From: Anaerolineae bacterium
GTDB lineage: Bacteria > Chloroflexota > Anaerolineae > Aggregatilineales > Phototrophicaceae
Length of the DNA stretch: 32,676 bases
Reading direction: 5' to 3'
Assembly: GCA_014879665.1 (NCBI GenBank)
Contig: JACSRP010000154.1
Location: 1-32,676, forward strand
Position numbers and translations under genes: made by a program. The stretch's first letter is position 1; each line of letters starts with the position of its first letter. Of the stretch, positions 1 to 11,350 are shown piece by piece. The notes below the pieces were generated by a model that made no database searches, was not told where the DNA came from, and saw only the letters and a list, made by a program, of their open reading frames with translations.

Positions 1-1497
1 CACATCGCGGCGCTCAGTTTTGCCGTTCGCCAGCTTAATTTTCAACGTTGCAGCTTTGCGCCCGGCGCGAGGCTTACCATTCAAGCTGATCGCCGTCCCC
101 AGATTCTCAATGCCTTCTGCAAGCTGAACCGCCGCCTGCGGATTCAACCGCGCCAATGCCCCTAGTGCTGGAATCAATCCTGATGAATCGATCTGCAAAC
201 GGGTCACGCCGCGCGGTTCCAGCGCGTCTAACATCAGCATGGCAGTCAGTCCCGGCCTGCCGGTATTCGCCAGCCCCGCCCCCGCCGCGATAATTCGCGC
301 CATTGGCTGAAGCGGCGAATGTGGGTCATCAAAAGCGGTATCTGGCGTCCATGCCGGACGGGCAGCCGCCAGCAGCGACCGCAGCCCCGCCCGTATCAGC
401 GCATGTTCCAGATACAACGCCCGCAGCGTGTCCGGCGCGAGGCCGGGGCGCAGCGTTTTATTCAGCGCGTAATCCCGAATTTCATCATCATAAGACACGA
501 ACGGCAGCCATGCCTGAATCGCCTTGACGCCCACCACATCAATCAGGCTGTGGGCGCTGGTGCCTAGGCCAATATCGGTACGGATGCTGGTTGTCGCCCG
601 GCCATTCACATACGCCGAAAGGGTGCTGGCAGTCGCGCCCATATCAGCGATCAATACGCCTTCTTTAGCGGCAGCCTGGCGGCCAAAGTATTCAGCGATA
701 GTGTGATAGCTTTGCGCGTTGGGCAGTACCCCCAGCTTCGTCATCCGCCCCACAGCGTTAAAGCCGATGCCGCGCTGCCCGGCCAGCGTGTTAAACGCCA
801 GCGCCAGTTCTAACTGCGCGGCGTCTAAGCGTTCGACACCAATGGTCGGGCGCACATTATCAGTAAAATAGACATCAGCAACATCTTGAAAAAGTGCTTG
901 GATTTCATCATGCAGCGCGGCATTTCCGGCAAACAGGATTAGCGGCGCGTGGCCGCGCATCACCCCCGCGGAAAGCCGTACAATGTGCGCCAGATCCAGC
1001 ACCGCTTTTTTCGCGCCATCATCCGTACCGCCTGTCAAAAAGATCAGGTCAGGGCGCGCCAGCACGATCTCATTCAAGGTTTGCCCCGGCGTTCGGGCAT
1101 CTTCCAGTGTGATCGTGTCCAGCACGTTCACATAAGTACCAGACGCCGCACGTAATGCGCTGGCCGCGCTAATTTCAGGCATCAAGCCTACGACTACGGT
1201 ACGCAAAGGCCGCCCGATGCTGGCCGTCGCCACAAACATATCCACGCCCGAACGATCCGGCTGCTCAGGGCGAATCAGCGCGCCATCAGTACTCACCATC
1301 TGCCGCCCGGTCAGCTGCCCGATCTGCCGGGCCACCCGGTTCAGGCCAACGCCAATGTCGTAATACGGAAAACCGGCTGTCGTCGGCTCAATGGCCGAGG
1401 CCACCTCCGTATATGCGCCCTCCACCAGATCGATCAATACCGCGCGGGTATTCACGTTGCCAAAATCAACGGCGAGGATAGACCCCTCTACGGCCAT
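1..1497 (-). CDS. MutL-like ASKHA ATPase (glutamate mutase L family), 3' end outside the window
   Basis: The ATG at 1497 opens a frame that stays open for 499 codons to the left edge, so the C-terminus is missing. ASKHA (actin/Hsp70-type) nucleotide-binding signatures are visible. Phosphate-1 is ILAVDFGNVNTRAVLID near residue 10, phosphate-2 is VLIADMGATASTLSAYV near residue 280, and an adenosine-type loop IIAAGAGLANTGRPG lies near residue 400. LTGGTDDGAKKAVLDLA is also typical of this family. In clostridia MutL lies between the glutamate mutase subunit genes and is thought to act as a reactivation or chaperone ATPase. No mutase gene is seen here. The start lies 3 bp after the stop of the upstream membrane protein, with AGGTGG upstream as a possible ribosome site. 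It is the last visible gene of the minus-strand operon. The family call is firm; the role is unknown and may be to power or assemble the neighbouring membrane proteins. Confidence 0.85.
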   Translation of the reverse strand, partial: MAVEGSILAVDFGNVNTRAVLIDLVEGAYTEVASAIEPTTAGFPYYDIGVGLNRVARQIGQLTGRQMVSTDGALIRPEQPDRSGVDMFVATASIGRPLRTVVVGLMPEISAASALRAASGTYVNVLDTITLEDARTPGQTLNEIVLARPDLIFLTGGTDDGAKKAVLDLAHIVRLSAGVMRGHAPLILFAGNAALHDEIQALFQDVADVYFTDNVRPTIGVERLDAAQLELALAFNTLAGQRGIGFNAVGRMTKLGVLPNAQSYHTIAEYFGRQAAAKEGVLIADMGATASTLSAYVNGRATTSIRTDIGLGTSAHSLIDVVGVKAIQAWLPFVSYDDEIRDYALNKTLRPGLAPDTLRALYLEHALIRAGLRSLLAAARPAWTPDTAFDDPHSPLQPMARIIAAGAGLANTGRPGLTAMLMLDALEPRGVTRLQIDSSGLIPALGALARLNPQAAVQLAEGIENLGTAISLNGKPRAGRKAATLKIKLANGKTERRDV

Positions 1498-1500
1498 CGC

Positions 1501-2166
1501 TTAACTGCCACCTATGGTAGTGAAGATAAATGCCAGACGCTCGGTCAAAATTACCAGCCCGGTCAAGATTGCGCCGCCATACAAAGCGCCCAGCGCAATC
1601 ACCACGAACCCTTGCCCGATAGTACCTAGTATCCGCCCGAAGGCGCCGCGCCGCACCGTGCCATCTGGCGCGCGGCGGCTAAAATGCCCGAAATAGACCA
1701 GCGTGCAAATCACCCCGCCCACCACCAGAAAACCATTGAACAGGGCAATGCCCGCGTCATCTCCGCTGGCCTGTGGGCGCAGCGCGCTGACTGTATCATT
1801 CATCACCGGAATTAGCGTACCGCTGATCGCGCCGATAATTCCTACCGCCGCGCCCACGCCGATGATCAAGCCCAGTGCCAGATTGCCCAGCTTGTGATAG
1901 CGCCGGAACGATTTAGTTAGCAGCAGCACGCCCAGCACCACCGGCAAAATACCAATGATGATCCCGCCAAACTCACCGCTGCCAACCGTACCACGCAGCC
2001 ACGGCAAAATGACGCTTTCAACCGTCAGCACCGTGATATAGCCGGCAGCCAGCCCGGCAAATATATAAACTGCCAGTCGGTATAGAAAATTATCGCCTAG
2101 CAAATAGCTGAAGATCATCAGCGTGAATACGAAACCGGCGGCTAAGCCGATCTGATCCGGCGTCAC
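1501..2166 (-). CDS. multi-pass membrane protein of unknown function
   Basis: This 221-residue, very hydrophobic protein has about six to seven predicted membrane segments spread over its whole length, with a basic loop KSFRRYHK between segments. It shows no catalytic motif that I recognise. The GTG start at 2166 overlaps the TGA stop of the giant upstream gene (GTGA, 4 bp), and AGGAGA lies about 8 bp before it, so translation is probably coupled. It sits between the giant tethered protein and the MutL-like ATPase, so it may be an integral membrane part of the same complex. The function is an inference from position only. Confidence 0.8.
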   Translation of the reverse strand: MTPDQIGLAAGFVFTLMIFSYLLGDNFLYRLAVYIFAGLAAGYITVLTVESVILPWLRGTVGSGEFGGIIIGILPVVLGVLLLTKSFRRYHKLGNLALGLIIGVGAAVGIIGAISGTLIPVMNDTVSALRPQASGDDAGIALFNGFLVVGGVICTLVYFGHFSRRAPDGTVRRGAFGRILGTIGQGFVVIALGALYGGAILTGLVILTERLAFIFTTIGGS

Positions 2167-5100
2167 CGTGTACGTCTCCTTCGCGAAATGCCGCGCGCGA
2201 TATTGATGATAGTTCCCAGCGCGATCACCCCCGCAGAAACCAGAATACCCAGCGTCATCGCATACCAGCGTTCATCGCGGTAGCCAGCCGAAGGCGGCAG
2301 TACCGTGAATGAAATCGGTGGCGCCATCTGCTCGGTGGCTTCGGGAGTTACTTCAGGTGTCACTTCTTCTGTCGGCGTCGCTGTTGGTTCAGCAGTTGCC
2401 GAAGGGCGGCGCGTGTTAGTTTCCGTCGGTTCTGGCGTGCTGGTCGGGCGGCGGGTGTTGGTCGCTGTTGGCGCAGGCGTATTCGTCGCGTCTGCTTCGT
2501 CCGTTTGCGTATCTTCGGTTGATTGTATCGCTTGTGCCAGCGCCGTTGCCGTCAGCGCAAAGGCATTCACCTGCGCGGTTGCCGTTAATTCCTCAGGATC
2601 AAATTCTGCTGTTGGCGTGGTTCCGTCCGGCAATGTTTGTTCCGCCGGTTTGGCGACAGTGTCTTTACCCGTCAGATTATATGCGCCCGAAATGGCTATC
2701 AACTGGCTGGAAACCCAGCCTTCAAGGCCGTCGTCCAAACGTACATTAAACCACGAGCTGTCTTCATTGACGCCGATCACCGTCACCGGCGTTCCCGGTT
2801 GTAACCGCGCCAGAATTTCAGCCGTGGTATCTGGCTGCACGCGTAAATTCACCGTCTGATTTGAAGAGATAGATCCCTGCACCGGCGTCGGCGTCAGAGT
2901 CGGCGTCAGCGTGCTCGTCGGCGTAAACGTAAACGTCGGCGTAAAGGTGAACGTCGGCGTAAACGTAAACGTTGCGGAAGGCGTAAACAGCAGCGGCGCG
3001 GGGCGGTTTCCACGCGGCACAAATTGCGCTGCCGATGTGGGGAACGGCGTCCCCTCCATCTCCACCGTCACCTCAGCCTCAACCGTGGTTTCGGGCATCA
3101 ACAACGCTGCCAGCCCCAGGCGCGGCTCAGGGAAATTGCCGATCAGCGTATTGTACGTATACGCGCCTTCGTAGCCGCTGATCAACCCTGCCAGCATGCC
3201 CCCCGGCAGCCCATCAACATACGGTTCAACCATTGGCGCGGCGCTGTAATTCACCAGTGCGATCACTGGCGATCCGGTCAGCGGGGCGATCTGCTCCACA
3301 TAAGCGCGCACATCGTCAATGCGATCCGAAACCACCGCCACCGCCGCGAAATCACGCAGCGTGGTCAGGTTCAGGCCGGTAACCTGCCCGCGAATATCAT
3401 TTTGAACAAGCTGTGCCGTGTCTTCGCTAAATGCGCGTAAACCGATTGCGCCGCCCGGCACGAACTGCACCAGAAAATAATCGGCGTTGGGCTGCAGCGC
3501 AGAGGTGCCAAGCTGCGCAAGGAAATCGCTGTCACCGGCAATCTCATCAAGCAGCAGTTCGGCACGCAGAAGCCCCAGCGGGTTTGCGCTCAGCACGACC
3601 GGGTATGCACCCCGAATCAAAATGTGCCGCAGCACTGCTTCCAGTGCCATATCCAGTTCGGCAGCCGAGGCAGGCGCATATTCAGCCCCCACCAGCACCA
3701 CAGATCCGGGCGCAAGATTTTCGATGACGTTAAACGCCGCTGTCGCCCGCGGATCTCCGGCAAACGATGCTGACGGTGGCTCGCCCACCCGCGCTTCTCG
3801 TAAGAAGAAAGGCAGCGAAATCACCGCCAACATCAATAAAGCAATCAGCAGGCGATCTATGCGTATACGCTGTCGGTTGCCTGTTTTGCGTTTTCTGGGC
3901 GCAGCTTTCACCGGCGCTTTAGCCGCCGCGGTAGAAGGCTCCTCGTCAAAATCGAGATTGTGCGCGGCCTCATAGGTCTGATCAATTGCGCTGGCGCGTT
4001 TCCCCGAATCCTGTTCTGCCGTGTCCGTGGCAGTTGCAACGAGCGACGTTAACAGCATCAGCTGCTTCTGCTGATCTGGTGTCAGCATCGCTTCGCCCAT
4101 GCCGCTGGAGGATATGCCGATTCGCGCCGGGGCAATCGCTGAACCAACACCGGGCAGCACTGTTTCCAGAGAGTCTGTCTCTGTGGCGACCGTCTGCTGA
4201 GGTATTTTCTCCGCGCGGCTGCGCAGCTTCTTCAGGCGCTCATCAAGATCGCCCTCTGAGCGATCCTGCTGCTTGCGTACAATCGCCGTCGCTGAAACCT
4301 CGCCTACGCTAACATCTGCCAGCCAATCGGGCGTCTCTGCTGCGGCAAGGTCTGCCAGTTCGGGATCATCTGAAATATCAAAGGGGGAGGCCACGCCGTA
4401 GGGATTGTAGCCTTGTGGTGCGGGCGCATCCTCGGTCACTTTCTGTTCCAGCAAAGATTCCAGATCAGCATCCGGCTCAAGCAGTGAATCCGTCACCGGT
4501 TTCAACACGCCCGTTCCAGTGGTCAGCGTCTTGAGATAGCTATCTAGATCTTCAAACTGCGCCTCATCGCCCGCCGCTTCTACAACTTCATCAGCATCAT
4601 ACTGCTCTATTTCCGCCACAAAATCCGGCTCAACTTGATCAGTAGAAGCAGCGAATTCAAAATCATCTTCTAGCGGAGGCGCATCGTAGGCATTCACTTC
4701 CCAGCTAAAACTACCGGGGATTCCCTCTCCATAGGACAGCGATTCCGCTTGCGCGCCGCTTTCTTCCTGCGCCATGCCGAACGACTGATAAAAGTCGTCT
4801 TCGCTGCTCTCGTCATCAAAAACGGCCTCGCCACTCACAAATTCTTCTAAGGTCGGCGCGTTTTCGTCACTTTCCAATCCTGCTTCGGCGCGAGCCTCGG
4901 CGAAAGCATCACCGCCAAAATGAATGACAAAGCCATCGTCAGGCTGTTCCCCTGTTGTATCCAATGCACTTACAGCCGCTTCCTCAACGAGCCATTCCAG
5001 ATCAGGCTCCGCTTCCTCAGCTGAAATTTCCTGCTCAGGCTCGAAGGTCACAGTTTCATCCGTCAGCGCCTCTAAATCTGGATAGAACTGCTCATCATCA

Positions 5101-7871
5101 ATGCGATCATCATCGTCATCTTCGCTCAGCGCCATTTCATGTTCAACGAAATCGGGCGCGGTGAAAGACTCTGCAATATCGCTCGTCCATGCGTCACCCG
5201 CAGTATCCGGTTGTTCGAAGTCAAATAAATCGTCGGCAGTTTCTTCCAGCGTCAAATCGCCCTGCGGAAACGCCAATACTTCAGACATTGAAACCGGGTT
5301 CTCAAAGCTCAATTCGCCAGATTCAAATGCTTCAGCCTCGCTGAACAGGGATTCTTCCATTCCCTGTTCAGTTTCAAACCCCTCAAGATCGATCTCGAAA
5401 TCGTCAGATGGAATCTCATTGGCTGTAAAATCCTGATACGACTCGCTTTCAAAGGCCGATAAATCAAGTTCAAATTCAGGTTCAGCCTCGCCCTCGCTAG
5501 CCGTTTCCGCAAAGCCAGTATCTAGCAGCGATTCATATCCCGGTACATCGGCTTCAACTGTTGGCGCAAGTTCTGCCTCAAGCCCGCTCAACGTCGTGGC
5601 ATCATAGTCGCCAGCCAGCAGTTCTTCCAGTTCAACATCCGCAAAAAGATCGTCTTCAAGTTCGGATGGTGCAAGTTCCGAAAGTTCGCGCGCAAGTTCT
5701 GAAGCCGCGCCCTGATCTACGGCTAATGCCGCATCTGGTTCGCCAATATCAAAACTTTCAAGCCCAAGCGAATCCAGTTCTTGCGCCCCCATCGCAGAGG
5801 CAGATTCAGCCTCGCCAAACAGATCATCGCTCATCCAGCCGGTTTCTTCGCCCGGCGGGTTGTTGTCGCCAAACAGGGCGCGTTCAAACGCAGCCAGATC
5901 GGCATTGGCTTCCTGCGCCAGCGCCGGAGTATCCACCGTTAGATCGCCGCCAGCTTGCATCGCCGCCAGCCAGTCCAGTTCATCGCTGTCGGGCGCAGTT
6001 TCAACCGGCGCTTCCGCGATCAACGCTTCTTCTTCAACAAACGACATGCCGGGCATGTTGTCTTCAAGTTGCGTGCCACTCAACCAATCCAGATCGGGCA
6101 CGGCGGTTTCTGCGTTCCAATCGGGGTCTATCGCTTCAAGCGGAGACTCATCTACTGCCGCTTCAAAGCCAGAGTCGCCGTCGAGTCCTTCGCCGCCCAT
6201 CAGCGTCTCAGCCAGCAGCACAGAGTCCAGCGACTCTTCGCCAAAACCAACGGGCTCAGGAATCTGGTCTGCTGCGGATGGTGAATTCACCACCTCATCC
6301 CAGCTTAAATCCCCGAAAATACCAGCATCATCCTGTGATTGGCTGGCGAAAAAGTCAGGTTCTGGTTCTTCCGGCGCTTCGTGAATCCCCGCGCGAGTGA
6401 GCATGCCAGTCAGCTTAATGCCGGGGTCAACCGGGGGCAGCGGCGATTCCCATGCCGGTTCTTCGGCTTGTGGTAGGGTTTCAGCAGCCGCCTGTGCCGC
6501 CTCCATCGCTTCGGGATCAATCGCCTTTAGCCAGTCCGTCTTGATGCCCGCCACGCCTTCGGGGTTGATGACGATTTCAGATTCCTGTGCCTCTTCAGGA
6601 TCAGGAATACTCGCCTCTACCGCAGCCTCCCAGTCGTAAACTGGCGATTCCGCAAGCTGTTCTGCAATCTCTTCACTGGCAAAATTAAATGCTTCCAGCG
6701 TCGAGAAATCTGTGGCGGCAGGCAGTGGTTCTTCATCATCCAGCGGTCTATTGACCGAGGTGACGATGTTTTCAAGCTCGCTCAGCCAATCCATCGTCTC
6801 CCCGCTCATCGCCTCTTCCGGGGCTGCTTCGGCGGGTTCATCCAGTTCAAAGCGGGTTTCTAGAAGCCCCATGCTGGCCGCTGACGAATCGGTCATGATC
6901 AAATCAAGTTCCGGTTCTTCAATTTCAGCGGCGGCGCTTGTAACACCGGCGGCGCTAAACCAGTCCACATCTGGAAGTTCTTCGTTTGGGTACCCGTCCG
7001 GGAAAACTGCTTCTACCGGTTGGGTGCTGTCCTGCGGCGGTTCATCAAATGTTTGATCAGGGGGCAGTTTTAATTCGCCAGTCACCACCCGTGCAGTAGA
7101 CGTGGAAAGCGACCTGAAGAAGGCGTCCATCTCAGTACCAGTATAACTGTCGTCTGGTGCTGCTTCGGGCGCGTATGGCTGCGAGGATACCCAGTCTAAG
7201 CCGGGCAGTTCCTCTTCATTCTGATCAGCATTCGGGCTATCGTTTCTGATTGCAAACGGATTATTGGGATCAGGTTCATTGTAGACCGGCGCTTCGTGCA
7301 GCGACTCGAAAAATGAGCTAATCGAGTCCGGATGGACATTAGAATCCTGCGGGGGCGGTAGTTCTTCTTCAGGCTCGCCTCGAAATGCCGAGGCGCTTTC
7401 ACCTGTAAACCAGTCCGGCGCGTCGGTGGTATCCAGTTCCTCTAGTCCCAGAAACCAGTCCGGCAGCTCGCCCGTCTGCCCTAATGGGCCGGTTTTCTTG
7501 GCAGCCTTAGGCGGTTCATCCGGCAGCGAGGTCGAAAGATCAGGAACTTCTTCTTCAATGCCCTTTTCGCGTTGAAGCTCTTTCTGTATCGCTGCCCAAT
7601 CATCATAAGTCTGCCCGGTATCCAACGACTCGGGCAGCATATCCGCCGCCGCCAGCCAATCTTCTTCTCCGAACCGGTTAACTTTTGTCAGCTTGTCATC
7701 GCGCAGCCACGGCGGGATAGTCTCGTCATCCGGCGAAGCTGGAATCCCCGGAAAAGCCGGGAGTTCGCTTCCGGAAGGCGTTGGTGGTTTTTTAGCCTCC
7801 GGCGGCGGATCGTCACGCAGCCACGGGGGCAGTTCGCCATTGTCTCCGTCGTGTGGATGATTGTCGCTCAA
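2163..7871 (-). CDS. giant acidic membrane-tethered protein with Trp-Leu/Phe motifs and an SH3b domain
   Basis: This 1902-residue protein has four zones. Residues 1 to about 1180 are very acidic, low in Lys/Arg and probably disordered, with repeated short motifs such as PPWLRDD (W17, W55), LPDWFLG, APDWFTG, VPDLDWLSG and TPDWLADVS. A basic stretch (RKRKTGNRQRIRIDR) precedes a membrane helix at about 1332-1352. Next comes an extracytoplasmic alpha/beta region (about 1355-1600). An FTFTPT linker, an SH3b-type domain (about 1665-1725, containing VNLRVQP and GWVSSQLIAI) and a Thr/Pro-rich stretch follow. A last helix (about 1869-1891) ends in RGISRRRRTR. The positive-inside rule puts both ends in the cytoplasm and the SH3b domain outside. 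The start is TTG at 7871 with AGGGG six bases upstream, overlapping the previous stop. It may be an envelope scaffold that recruits cytoplasmic partners through its Trp motifs; this is inference. Confidence 0.85.
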   Translation of the reverse strand: MSDNHPHDGDNGELPPWLRDDPPPEAKKPPTPSGSELPAFPGIPASPDDETIPPWLRDDKLTKVNRFGEEDWLAAADMLPESLDTGQTYDDWAAIQKELQREKGIEEEVPDLSTSLPDEPPKAAKKTGPLGQTGELPDWFLGLEELDTTDAPDWFTGESASAFRGEPEEELPPPQDSNVHPDSISSFFESLHEAPVYNEPDPNNPFAIRNDSPNADQNEEELPGLDWVSSQPYAPEAAPDDSYTGTEMDAFFRSLSTSTARVVTGELKLPPDQTFDEPPQDSTQPVEAVFPDGYPNEELPDVDWFSAAGVTSAAAEIEEPELDLIMTDSSAASMGLLETRFELDEPAEAAPEEAMSGETMDWLSELENIVTSVNRPLDDEEPLPAATDFSTLEAFNFASEEIAEQLAESPVYDWEAAVEASIPDPEEAQESEIVINPEGVAGIKTDWLKAIDPEAMEAAQAAAETLPQAEEPAWESPLPPVDPGIKLTGMLTRAGIHEAPEEPEPDFFASQSQDDAGIFGDLSWDEVVNSPSAADQIPEPVGFGEESLDSVLLAETLMGGEGLDGDSGFEAAVDESPLEAIDPDWNAETAVPDLDWLSGTQLEDNMPGMSFVEEEALIAEAPVETAPDSDELDWLAAMQAGGDLTVDTPALAQEANADLAAFERALFGDNNPPGEETGWMSDDLFGEAESASAMGAQELDSLGLESFDIGEPDAALAVDQGAASELARELSELAPSELEDDLFADVELEELLAGDYDATTLSGLEAELAPTVEADVPGYESLLDTGFAETASEGEAEPEFELDLSAFESESYQDFTANEIPSDDFEIDLEGFETEQGMEESLFSEAEAFESGELSFENPVSMSEVLAFPQGDLTLEETADDLFDFEQPDTAGDAWTSDIAESFTAPDFVEHEMALSEDDDDDRIDDEQFYPDLEALTDETVTFEPEQEISAEEAEPDLEWLVEEAAVSALDTTGEQPDDGFVIHFGGDAFAEARAEAGLESDENAPTLEEFVSGEAVFDDESSEDDFYQSFGMAQEESGAQAESLSYGEGIPGSFSWEVNAYDAPPLEDDFEFAASTDQVEPDFVAEIEQYDADEVVEAAGDEAQFEDLDSYLKTLTTGTGVLKPVTDSLLEPDADLESLLEQKVTEDAPAPQGYNPYGVASPFDISDDPELADLAAAETPDWLADVSVGEVSATAIVRKQQDRSEGDLDERLKKLRSRAEKIPQQTVATETDSLETVLPGVGSAIAPARIGISSSGMGEAMLTPDQQKQLMLLTSLVATATDTAEQDSGKRASAIDQTYEAAHNLDFDEEPSTAAAKAPVKAAPRKRKTGNRQRIRIDRLLIALLMLAVISLPFFLREARVGEPPSASFAGDPRATAAFNVIENLAPGSVVLVGAEYAPASAAELDMALEAVLRHILIRGAYPVVLSANPLGLLRAELLLDEIAGDSDFLAQLGTSALQPNADYFLVQFVPGGAIGLRAFSEDTAQLVQNDIRGQVTGLNLTTLRDFAAVAVVSDRIDDVRAYVEQIAPLTGSPVIALVNYSAAPMVEPYVDGLPGGMLAGLISGYEGAYTYNTLIGNFPEPRLGLAALLMPETTVEAEVTVEMEGTPFPTSAAQFVPRGNRPAPLLFTPSATFTFTPTFTFTPTFTFTPTSTLTPTLTPTPVQGSISSNQTVNLRVQPDTTAEILARLQPGTPVTVIGVNEDSSWFNVRLDDGLEGWVSSQLIAISGAYNLTGKDTVAKPAEQTLPDGTTPTAEFDPEELTATAQVNAFALTATALAQAIQSTEDTQTDEADATNTPAPTATNTRRPTSTPEPTETNTRRPSATAEPTATPTEEVTPEVTPEATEQMAPPISFTVLPPSAGYRDERWYAMTLGILVSAGVIALGTIINIARGISRRRRTR
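2917..2970. repeat. three 18-bp tandem units coding the FTFTPT linker
   Basis: Three consecutive 18-bp units (GTCGGCGTAAACGTAAAC, with three changes in the middle unit) lie inside the giant gene. Read on the minus strand they code Phe-Thr-Phe-Thr-Pro-Thr. The near-identical DNA suggests recent expansion by slippage or recombination of a spacer between the alpha/beta region and the SH3b domain. Confidence 0.85.
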
Positions 7872-7880
7872 CGCAATCCC

Positions 7881-8486
7881 CTATTCACGGTATGCCCGTT
7901 CCTGCCCGATCAACGCGCGCATACCGGTAACCACAGCCGCCAGCGCTATTCCAATCAGCAAACCACGCGCCCCGGCACTCGCCGGAACTGCTACCATCCA
8001 TGCGCGAATTTCACTCATCACGCTCAACTGGCTGAAAGGCAGCGCGCCCAGCAGCGTAATCAACAGCGCCAGAGTGAAAAGCAGCGCCGCCCACGTTACG
8101 CCGCGTCGCATCAGCCGGTATGCGCCATAAACCAGCGCAAAGACCAGCAGCGCCGCCAGCGCCGATTCTATCGAACCTTCAACATCGCGCAGCAAGATGC
8201 GCCGTTCGGCATCCGCGCCAAGCACATACAGCGCGATCACCAGTAGGAAGCTGAGCACCAGGGCAACGCTGTATAGCAAGCCGCGTTCACGCCCGATAAT
8301 GCGCCGCAAATGCACGCTCAGCAAGTTAATCACGCCGATGATCATCGCCATTCCCGCAGTGATGATCGTAATTTGCAGCAGCAGGTTGGTCAGACTGCTC
8401 AGCGCGCCCGTCGCCAACCCGATCAGCATGATCAAGCCGGAGCTAATTGCCAGCGCCGTCGCCAATAAGCCAATAATTCGGGACAT
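7881..8486 (-). CDS. multi-pass membrane protein of unknown function
   Basis: This 201-residue protein has about six hydrophobic segments, with basic loops (HLRRIIGRERG and YRLMRRG) between them. No family was recognised. The ATG at 8486 overlaps the stop of the upstream gene by one base (TAATG) behind a G-rich ribosome-binding stretch, and its stop at 7881 is only 9 bp before the start of the giant gene, so co-translation is likely. It is one of three membrane proteins in the six-gene cluster. The surrounding GC content and codon use do not stand out, which argues against recent acquisition. Confidence 0.8.
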   Translation of the reverse strand: MSRIIGLLATALAISSGLIMLIGLATGALSSLTNLLLQITIITAGMAMIIGVINLLSVHLRRIIGRERGLLYSVALVLSFLLVIALYVLGADAERRILLRDVEGSIESALAALLVFALVYGAYRLMRRGVTWAALLFTLALLITLLGALPFSQLSVMSEIRAWMVAVPASAGARGLLIGIALAAVVTGMRALIGQERAYRE

Positions 8487-9301
8487 TAGCCGCCCCCGCC
8501 GAACAATCCGGTCAAAAAGCGGGTGATCACTCCACCCGTCACAGCATCACCAACCACCACAATTACGGGAATGAGCAAGCAGATAATCACCACAAATTGT
8601 AGTACCTGCTGGGCCAGCGCGCTGCCAATATGCACACTATCTTCGCCCAGATAAGCGCCAGCGAGCGAAAATTCATCGCCCAGCAGGGCATAGTCGGCCA
8701 TCACATAGCCCACCGCCTGCCCTTCCAGATCGCGGCTGGCGGCAATTGAATACATTCTCTTATTCGCAGCATTCCATAAAGGCAGCGCCAGTTCAATGCC
8801 AAAACCGCCAGCATAAATGCCGCCAGCCGCATCTTCATTAGCGGCCACGCCCGTCAATATTGCAGCGAAAGCCAGTAAACGGTTGCCCGGCGCATACCAC
8901 TGCACATGCCTTGCCTGCTGCAATCGCCCGGTACGCCCCACGGCCTGTACCGCGCGGTATTGGGCGCTGTATGCGAGAGGAATCATAGTCACATCACTCA
9001 CCGCTATCATCGGCGCGCGTTCGCCAATGGCTGCCTGCTTCGCCACCTGATAGGCAATCTCAGTGCTTGCCAGAGCAAAGGGGGTTGGTGTGCCGCCAAT
9101 GCCATCCTGTGCGATAGCGATCAGCATCGGGCGACCAGCTTCAATGGACGCGCCCACAATGCCAGACATCGCCCGGTATCCCGGAATCAAACGCAGCGTT
9201 AGGCCTTCCTTGCGCCGGCGAGCCACCGGAATTGCTGTCGCCAGTGTCGCAAAAGCCAGCACAATCATCAGGATCGTCCATACACGTGTCGTTGGATCCA
9301 C
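8486..9301 (-). CDS. DUF6754-like membrane protein
   Basis: This 271-residue protein has an N-terminal membrane helix (about 5-25), a conserved soluble core and one or two C-terminal helices (about 220-265). The core carries GRPMLIAIAQDGIGG, ASTEIAYQVAKQAA and ANEDAAGGIYAGGFGIELAL, which I associate with DUF6754, a family found in Chloroflexota and some archaea. That assignment is from memory. The start is GTG at 9301 with GGGGGCGAC about 5 bp upstream, only 2 bp after the stop of the small first gene. The family has no known activity. The glycine-rich core could bind a ligand or partner protein. Its position suggests it belongs to the same membrane assembly as the giant scaffold and the MutL-like ATPase. 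Confidence 0.75.
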   Translation of the reverse strand: MDPTTRVWTILMIVLAFATLATAIPVARRRKEGLTLRLIPGYRAMSGIVGASIEAGRPMLIAIAQDGIGGTPTPFALASTEIAYQVAKQAAIGERAPMIAVSDVTMIPLAYSAQYRAVQAVGRTGRLQQARHVQWYAPGNRLLAFAAILTGVAANEDAAGGIYAGGFGIELALPLWNAANKRMYSIAASRDLEGQAVGYVMADYALLGDEFSLAGAYLGEDSVHIGSALAQQVLQFVVIICLLIPVIVVVGDAVTGGVITRFLTGLFGGGG

Positions 9302-9303
9302 GC

Positions 9304-9561
9304 TTAGTCGCCCCCTGCCGGCTCTTGAAGCCAGCCACGAATTTGCTCAATACCTTCCGGCGTTTCCAGCGCCCTCGCCAGTCCCTCAGCAGGGCTGCGC
9401 CAGCCGAAAACTCCCAGTGTAGGGCTGGTCACATAAAGTAGCTGGGCGCTCAATGCTCCGAAGGGTTCCAGAATATCCAGCGCCGTCAAAGCAGCATTAG
9501 ACCATCCGCGCGCGCGCAGTTCTGCAATCCATTCAGGTGGGTTCTTGGAGGCATTTTGCAT
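9304..9561 (-). CDS. small hypothetical protein, first gene of the minus-strand operon
   Basis: This small protein has about 85 residues when started at the ATG at 9561. The frame could extend to TTG at 9579, but that would cover the likely -10 box TATAGT (9568-9573, minus strand), so 9561 is preferred. The transcript may be leaderless, because only 6 nt separate the hexamer from the ATG. The sequence begins NPPEWIAELRARGWS, resembling the Pro-Pro-Trp-Leu motifs of the giant protein in the same operon. It has a hydrophobic middle and ends in RGWLQEPAGGD. No family was recognised. It could be a small adaptor for the membrane proteins, which is speculative. Confidence 0.65.
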   Translation of the reverse strand: MQNASKNPPEWIAELRARGWSNAALTALDILEPFGALSAQLLYVTSPTLGVFGWRSPAEGLARALETPEGIEQIRGWLQEPAGGD

Positions 9562-9573: not shown

Positions 9574-9687
9574 GCACAAACTGTCTTCTGTGAGGTATTA
9601 AGAGACAAAAGCAATGCGTAATGGGTGATGAGAAAAAAGTAATGCGTTTTGACTCCTCACTCATCTCTTCTTTATTTAATGCACACT

Positions 9688-9730: not shown

Positions 9731-11350
9731 ATGGATAACCGAAAAGCACCCACCATGACCGATCTCAACCCTGTTCGCACGCCTTACGACGACATTATTT
9801 ATCCTGAAGCCGCCTTCGCCCAATCTCACCCTGATCGCATAGCGATGCTGGGCATTCTGCTGGGCATGACCCCCGCGCCAGTCGAAAACTGCCGGGTATT
9901 GGAGCTTGGCTGTGGCACCGGCGGCAACCTGATCCCGATGGCTTACCAGTACCCCAATAGTGTTTTTGTAGGCATTGATTACGCCGCCACCCAGATTGAT
10001 GTCGCCCGCGCTGCATCAGATGCAATTAACCTCCAGAATATCGAGTTTCTCGCTAAAAATTTCCTCGATGTGACCGATGAATCGCTAGGCGAATTTGACT
10101 ACATCATCGCTCACGGCATCTATTCATGGGTGCCGCGTCCGGTTCAGGCCAAAATACTCGATCTCTATAAAAAGCATCTCGCGCCAAACGGCATCGCCTA
10201 TATCAGCTATAACACGCTGCCCGGATGGCGTATGTACGGCGTGGGTCGCGAAATGATGATGTATCGCATCCGCAATGTCACCGACTATACCGAGCGCGCG
10301 CGCACCGCCCGTGAATTCTTCAATTTCATTGCGAACATTCCAAAATCGCTGGATAACGATACCCACTGGTCGCAGTTCATGAACGCCTTCGGCATTCTGC
10401 TGCAAAGTCAGGCCTCATATCTGCAATTGAAGCCCGACGAAATGTTTGTGCACGATGAGCTTGAATACAATAACGAAGCCCTGTATTTCTATGAATTTAT
10501 GGAGCGCGCCGAAGCCGCCGGCCTACAATTCCTATCAGAATCGTATTTCCCCTACAGCGTGCTCACCAATTTCCCTGAGAATGTGCGCGATTTTCTAGGG
10601 GCGCATGCCACCAATATCATCGAGCTGGAGCAGTACCTCGATTACTTCCGCAACCGTACCTTCCGCCAAACCCTGCTAGTACACAGCGATCTGCAACTTG
10701 ATCGCCGCATCAAGCCGCAGCAGCTGGCAAAATTATTTATAACCTCGCCTATGACCAAAAGCCCTACCGCGCCAGAAGATGGCGTCCCGAACGGGATCAA
10801 ATTTGCCACCCGCAATAACGAGCTTTCCTTCGCCAGCAACGATGCTATGACCGTTTCCTCATTCTCGCTGCTCACACAAGCCTATCCCGCTGAATATGGC
10901 CTACTCGAACTGGTTGAGGCCGCCCGCGCAGACACCTATACTTATCAAGTCCCGCCTAAAACGCTTGATCAGGACTTACAGTCCACCGCCGCAAATATCC
11001 TGCAATCGTTCGGGCGTAGCTACGATATGGTCGAGCTGCGCGCCAGCCCCGCCCCGATGGTCATCGAAATCAGTGAACACCCCATCGCCAGCTTCTACGC
11101 GCGTTATCAGGCGCAAAACTCACTGGTGGTCACCAATCAACGTCATGAGCGCGTCAATCTGGATGAAACCACTCGCTTCGTGATGCTGCGCCTTGACGGG
11201 CAAACCAGCGCGGAAGATATCGCCCGGGAATTGGAACGGGCAGCCGTTGCCCCGCGCAACAAAACGCCTTTAGAAGTGCGCGAAGGCTACTACAATGAAG
11301 TCGGGAAAATATTGGGCTATCTGGCACAGTCGGCACTGCTCGTCGGCTAA
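9731..11350 (+). CDS. SAM-dependent methyltransferase with regulatory domain, PKMT-like
   Basis: This 539-residue protein carries the class I SAM-binding motif ELGCGTGG (residues 58-65), followed by VGIDYAATQI and a motif IV region FDYIIAHGIYSWVP. The central part matches the 'methyltransferase regulatory domain' architecture, and the C-terminus looks like a small winged helix (TRFVMLRLDGQTSAEDIA). Length and layout resemble the rickettsial protein-lysine methyltransferases PKMT1 and PKMT2, which modify an outer-surface protein. A similar protein-methylating role is possible here, but the substrate is unknown. The start is ATG at 9731; ATG at 9755 is an alternative, and neither has a ribosome site. 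The gene stands alone, divergent from the six-gene operon, and shares an intergenic region with it. Confidence 0.85.
   Translation: MDNRKAPTMTDLNPVRTPYDDIIYPEAAFAQSHPDRIAMLGILLGMTPAPVENCRVLELGCGTGGNLIPMAYQYPNSVFVGIDYAATQIDVARAASDAINLQNIEFLAKNFLDVTDESLGEFDYIIAHGIYSWVPRPVQAKILDLYKKHLAPNGIAYISYNTLPGWRMYGVGREMMMYRIRNVTDYTERARTAREFFNFIANIPKSLDNDTHWSQFMNAFGILLQSQASYLQLKPDEMFVHDELEYNNEALYFYEFMERAEAAGLQFLSESYFPYSVLTNFPENVRDFLGAHATNIIELEQYLDYFRNRTFRQTLLVHSDLQLDRRIKPQQLAKLFITSPMTKSPTAPEDGVPNGIKFATRNNELSFASNDAMTVSSFSLLTQAYPAEYGLLELVEAARADTYTYQVPPKTLDQDLQSTAANILQSFGRSYDMVELRASPAPMVIEISEHPIASFYARYQAQNSLVVTNQRHERVNLDETTRFVMLRLDGQTSAEDIARELERAAVAPRNKTPLEVREGYYNEVGKILGYLAQSALLVG

Follow-up and report, generated by a model that had tools for sequence, protein, structure and literature searches.

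A Chloroflexota gene module encoding a MutL-like predicted ASKHA ATPase and a giant scaffold with arrays of PxWL motifs

The left end of the window (the whole 32,676-nucleotide stretch of DNA analysed here) carries most of an eight-gene module that most of the sampled genomes in one order of Chloroflexota possess and the core of which extends across much of the phylum; the literature searched holds no description of DUF6754, of the Chloroflexota MutL or of the function of this module. The gene set recurs, its order is conserved, its giant protein carries arrays of a short motif, and no mutase gene is linked to it. The new feature is the acidic tail of the giant, an array of short [DE][LV]PxWL motifs. 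Judging from sequence, structural models and analogy, we give about even chances to the reading that the module is an ATPase-scaffold system of Chloroflexota in which these motifs are bound. Chloroflexota are abundant and often filamentous bacteria with poorly understood envelopes; if correct, this reading would add to cell-envelope biology an actin-fold ATPase system along with a short docking motif, and Chloroflexota species are already in culture.

The gene cluster and its continuation beyond the window

The window is the entire contig C27 of a source genome (G000) that is assembled in 269 contigs. The six genes in its first 9.6 kb all lie on the minus strand. The presumed operon starts with p91, a small soluble protein (9304..9561; ATG at 9561, the mechanical open reading frame beginning at a TTG at 9579), followed after a 2 bp gap by the DUF6754 protein (8486..9301), which overlaps by 1 bp (TAATG) with p201 (7881..8486), a multi-pass membrane protein with about five transmembrane (TM) segments by hydropathy. 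After a 9 bp gap comes the giant scaffold of 1902 amino acids (2163..7871), then, with a 4-bp overlap (GTGA), p221 (1501..2166), a multi-pass protein with about six TM segments by hydropathy, and, 3 bp further, the MutL-like protein (1..1497). Thus, the six genes and tight junctions of the membrane cluster described in the initial annotation were reproduced, whereas its extent was not: the cluster has eight genes, and the MutL frame is cut at base 1, where C27 ends. No Pfam or NCBIfam match above the cut-off was obtained for p91, p201 or p221, and a promoter scan of the cluster gave nothing above shuffles. The divergent neighbour at 9731-11350 encodes methyltransferase, MethyTransf_Reg and PKMT C-terminal domains; such a gene also adjoins the cluster in OLB15 (L002).

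The MutL reading frame is open at the left end of the contig, with 499 of about 663 residues in the window. The reverse complement of this end overlaps the start of contig C99 of the same genome by 69 bp, exactly and in frame, and the gene continues there (L159:1-564). C99 carries the MutL C-terminus followed by g7, g8, the gene of a DnaJ-domain protein and, truncated where the contig stops, one further gene. The g7 copy of this genome, located at C99:551-1603 in a search with g7, starts at 539, overlapping the MutL stop by 26 bp, and combines an NqrA/RnfC-like barrel-sandwich region with a KOW region. A mutase or other cognate enzyme past the left edge had been set beforehand as the refuting observation; C99 has no mutase gene beyond that edge, and g7 and g8 are found there instead.

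Many g8 proteins (L159:1787-3583 and homologues) end in an LPDTG-like sequence, a hydrophobic segment and basic residues, resembling a sortase signal, and also carry an N-terminal TM segment and an acidic cytoplasmic tail. Since sortases are present in all 15 genomes tested, these sequences are compatible with g8 being a sortase substrate (LPDTG-TM-Arg). In the source genome, g8 is followed by a protein with a C-terminal DnaJ domain (L159:3737-4468). L058 has a close homologue of this protein, likewise after g8, and L069 has another at the opposite side of the cluster. We do not count this gene as a module member because only one further locus has a close homologue in the corresponding place and it falls outside the recurring set.

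The DUF6754 protein is a direct member of PF20539 (E 7e-20; 71.6 bits against a cut-off of 27). Hydropathy indicates two TM segments, and the AF2 model (pLDDT 88.5) consists of a TM helix, a Rossmann-like domain at about residues 38-219, predicted to be cytoplasmic, and a long C-terminal TM helix. Assignment to a specific fold family failed: the best Foldseek E value was 8.6e-3, within a tied crowd of Rossmann-like folds, so that the model indicates the general fold only.

The MutL-like protein and the PxWL scaffold

The MutL-like protein matches PF13941 (MutL) over nearly the whole profile (1-447 of 450; 192.9 bits against a cut-off of 27; E 1e-56), whereas its score with the GlmL equivalog NF040745 is far below the cut-off (88.6 against 475 bits); the window copy is C-terminally cut, yet it covers positions 2-453 of the 459 in that model. 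By sequence, it has the phosphate-1, phosphate-2 and adenosine motifs of ASKHA ATPases, and the corresponding residues are retained in most of the 46 sequences compared: D7 in 41 (E in the other five), G9 in 45, T13, D280 and G282 in 44 each, and G393 in all. The model of a homologue (L072; pLDDT 91) has an ASKHA fold, the nearest structures being FtsA (1e4f, Z 14.8) and PilM (Z 12.8), which score only a few Z units higher than Hsp70; diol dehydratase reactivase is a further match. The comparison with FtsA and PilM made in the initial annotation is thus borne out at the level of the fold, whereas coupling of their kind is something we infer. Beyond the shared core, a C-terminal beta-rich part (model residues about 450-535) is additional and conserved in the MutL-like proteins, which also have a variable tail. 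A search of PDB sequences gave no significant relative, and Pfam at E values up to 1 gave only MutL, with neither FtsA nor PilM; NCBIfam lists no FtsA model.

In the phylogenetic tree, three canonical MutL proteins are separated from the clade of the MutL-like proteins (supports 96 and 100). GlmE (PF06368) is missing from the source genome (96.5% complete) and from nearly all other carriers tested, with sub-threshold matches in G108 and G260; in the positive control, G239, it is present beside a canonical MutL. Together with the lack of a mutase gene in the window and on C99, this agrees with the earlier claim that there is no mutase at the locus. Replacement of FtsA by the MutL-like protein was considered and rejected because FtsA is separate and universal: its model matches all 201 genomes of the phylum, above the cut-off in 190, and the source genome has an equivalog match on C247.

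The giant has two TM helices by hydropathy (residues 1335-1360 and 1869-1895); positive residues precede the first and follow the second, so the acidic tail and the C-terminus are placed inside and the intervening loop outside. The tail (residues 1-1334; 3870..7871, minus strand) contains 334 D+E against 51 K+R, for a net charge of about -283, and is probably disordered. The SH3b domain (residues 1673-1725; 2697..2855; PF08239, SH3_3, E 3.3e-13) lies in the outer part and is the sole Pfam domain of the window giant. The earlier description of a giant with SH3b outside and an acidic tail inside therefore stands, with the amendment that the tail is N-terminal. Between the first TM helix and SH3b is an extracytoplasmic domain (residues 1361-1610; 3042..3791) that is conserved from Anaerolineae to Chloroflexia in an alignment of 34 homologues from several classes; it showed no consistent Pfam match and no significant PDB sequence match. 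Homology of this domain to DUF6754 is unsupported (hhalign probability 0.8%).

Strict P-x-W-[hydrophobic] motifs occur in the tail of the window giant at residues 15, 53, 137, 152 and 1181, that is, 5 against 0.39 in shuffles (p 0.0002), and DW[LIVMF] occurs 10 times against 0.5. The scaffolds of 45 loci contain 494 PxWL motifs with the consensus [DE][LV]P[DA]WL[RQ], and 40 of the 45 are above shuffles; five lack the strict motif, and in two of these one N-terminal WL is all that is kept. Of the 767 other proteins encoded at the same loci, a single one, the giant of OLB15, has at least four copies. Some Chloroflexia reach 43-63 copies, and most genomic matches to a strict motif pattern at the DNA level fall inside the giant (31/32 in G268, which we take to be Chloroflexus aurantiacus, 13/13 in G316, taken for a Roseiflexus, and 25/31 in G260; our class names depend on the same kind of assignment). 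In the giant of G268 (L108), the array contains near-identical 48-bp DNA repeats, so many of its copies are not independent; related genomes differ in copy number (49 against 63). Outside the module, G119 encodes TPR-like proteins with 17 and 5 strict motifs (L166:1853-6367 and 6399-8510, respectively), and the source genome has a homologue of the second one (G000:C45:1853-3775). Given such further PxWL proteins with TPR repeats in some genomes of the order, PxWL may be a wider docking code.

Conservation of the module

DUF6754 is present in 140 of the 151 genomes of the order and MutL in 141; the 132 genomes that have both include 104 with the two on the same contig, 3.3-8.2 kb apart, and in every one of these the genes share one strand and are colinear, DUF6754 being the upstream one. 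The same arrangement holds in 34 of the 34 genomes outside the order in which both are on one contig. Loss of gene order in related genomes had been the other refuting observation set beforehand; the order of the genes is instead kept throughout the taxonomic order and also in other classes. An all-against-all comparison of 20 order loci, which were picked for having DUF6754 and MutL on one contig so that the counts measure what travels with the pair rather than the frequency of the pair, yielded eight recurring families: MutL (20 loci), the giant (19), p201 (19), DUF6754 (18), g7 (17), p221 (16), g8 (14) and p91 (12, in the same position as in the window). The next most frequent family occurs in 4 of the 20 loci; the borders of the module are therefore set without being assumed.

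In Chloroflexia, DUF6754, p201, the giant, p221 and MutL stay together, and g7 is located elsewhere, beside two-component genes. In L162-L165, g7 has neighbours with REC domains, which in G260 are a hybrid of REC and histidine kinase together with a REC protein, and some copies are near ATP synthase genes. Herpetosiphon aurantiacus is among these Chloroflexia. In other lineages, the membrane genes are missing, and only a PxWL protein (with a zinc ribbon in those read), the MutL-like protein and g7 are found; even there, the PxWL protein precedes MutL and remains beside MutL and g7. Among 200 genomes of the phylum, g7 is present in 113 and the MutL-like protein in 81; 77 genomes have both, and in 57 the two are adjacent. 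The co-occurrence of 77/81 has a Fisher p of 5e-22, a value that ignores the relatedness of the genomes. At least one genome with apparently only g7 (L161) has a divergent MutL-like gene upstream, recognised by its C-terminal GLVVDARGRPL stretch, so that 81 is a lower bound. The ancestral core is the PxWL scaffold, the MutL-like ATPase and g7, the barrel-sandwich/KOW protein, and the membrane parts look like later additions. The notion of a membrane machine fits the Anaerolineae and Chloroflexia form and fails for the family as a whole, since several lineages have the core without a membrane part.

Possible role and comparison with known systems

In the reading that we favour, the cytoplasmic MutL-like ATPase would bind the [DE][LV]PxWL motifs repeated along the acidic tail of the scaffold. 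In Anaerolineae and Chloroflexia, the scaffold has a TM helix and, outside the cytoplasm, a conserved domain that is often accompanied by SH3b, and it would work with the membrane proteins DUF6754, p201 and p221. Several copies of the ATPase binding at once, in an ATP-dependent manner, might cluster the scaffold, and through it a signal or force from the cytoplasm could reach the part that faces the wall, in a manner like that of PilM-PilN or FtsA-FtsN but multivalent; motif binding, clustering and the envelope role are what we infer here. In this scheme, g7 would belong to the core as a soluble partner, and g8 would be a second partner anchored in the membrane. The membrane anchor would be dispensable, given that several lineages have soluble scaffolds. 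PxWL could instead be recognised by g7 or by some protein that is not part of the module: TPR proteins with PxWL arrays are encoded elsewhere in some genomes, and the source genome has a homologue of one of them. The unlinked g7 in Chloroflexia and the five scaffolds that lack the strict motif also count against the favoured reading. A bolder version, a phylum-wide and previously undescribed envelope-spanning machine in which many ATPase copies are recruited to the repeated PxWL motifs of a giant membrane scaffold and PxWL is a general docking code of Chloroflexota, also on TPR proteins, is tentative and less probable than the favoured reading.

The most serious rival, which we nonetheless consider unlikely, sees in the MutL-like protein a chaperone or reactivase akin to GlmL or diol dehydratase reactivase, acting on another enzyme or on g7; the membrane proteins would then be clients, and the PxWL motifs would serve as client or pseudo-substrate peptides. 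A chaperone function, the reactivation of glutamate mutase, has been described for MutL/GlmL (PMC4682846), and membership in PF13941, the structural matches to Hsp70 and diol dehydratase reactivase and the DnaJ-domain gene after g8, with its counterpart in one other locus, would suit such a role. Against it, carriers lack a mutase, the GlmL equivalog score is far below the cut-off, the DnaJ gene is outside the recurring set, and FtsA and PilM outscore Hsp70, if only by a few Z units. Far less probable still, and rejected here for glutamate mutase of the GlmE type, is an ordinary accessory of a glutamate mutase encoded elsewhere: only the PF13941 family name favours it, GlmE is lacking in the source genome and in the other carriers tested apart from the two sub-threshold cases, and in G239 GlmE sits beside a canonical MutL, from which the MutL-like clade is separate.

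Somewhat less likely than a chaperone are two independent modules within one operon, linked through co-expression only: the soluble PxWL scaffold, MutL and g7 on the one hand, and an envelope set (DUF6754, p201, giant ectodomain and p221) with its own job on the other. The occurrence of the soluble set without the envelope set in several lineages and the unlinked g7 of Chloroflexia are consistent with this split. Against it, most envelope-set loci have the ectodomain and the PxWL array on a single polypeptide, and gene order is kept from Anaerolineae to Chloroflexia. A part in a motility machine, such as the gliding apparatus of filamentous Chloroflexota, seems improbable: the largest PxWL arrays are indeed carried by Herpetosiphon and by the genomes that we take for Chloroflexus and Roseiflexus, whereas the module is nearly universal in one order, its core occurs in many other lineages, and no further family recurs beside it. 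The genes for gliding in Chloroflexi have been reported as not identified (PMC3368417), which leaves room for such a role.

Among known systems, the partners of FtsA and PilM are bitopic membrane proteins bound through a cytoplasmic N-terminal peptide in the IA-IC cleft (PMC7613929); the analogy is specific in that a short cytoplasmic peptide resembles the motif-bearing tail of the scaffold. Like PilM-PilN, the module has a cytoplasmic protein with a predicted ASKHA fold and a proposed membrane partner that combines an N-terminal peptide in the cytoplasm with a domain outside it; unlike it, there is no PilM Pfam match, no pilus genes and nothing beyond the eight families recur beside the MutL-like gene, and the module has many motifs instead of one, a giant scaffold with two TM helices and extra families. 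FtsA-FtsN supplies the best structural match, and peptide binding by an actin-like protein (PMC7613929) would be its shared trait with the MutL-like protein, which is not FtsA, FtsA being separately present in the same genomes. With the GlmL/MutL of glutamate mutase, the MutL-like protein shares PF13941 and the ASKHA core and differs in lacking a linked mutase, in forming its own clade and in its beta-rich part and variable tail. For the DUF6754 family, a gene context and a structural model are now supplied.
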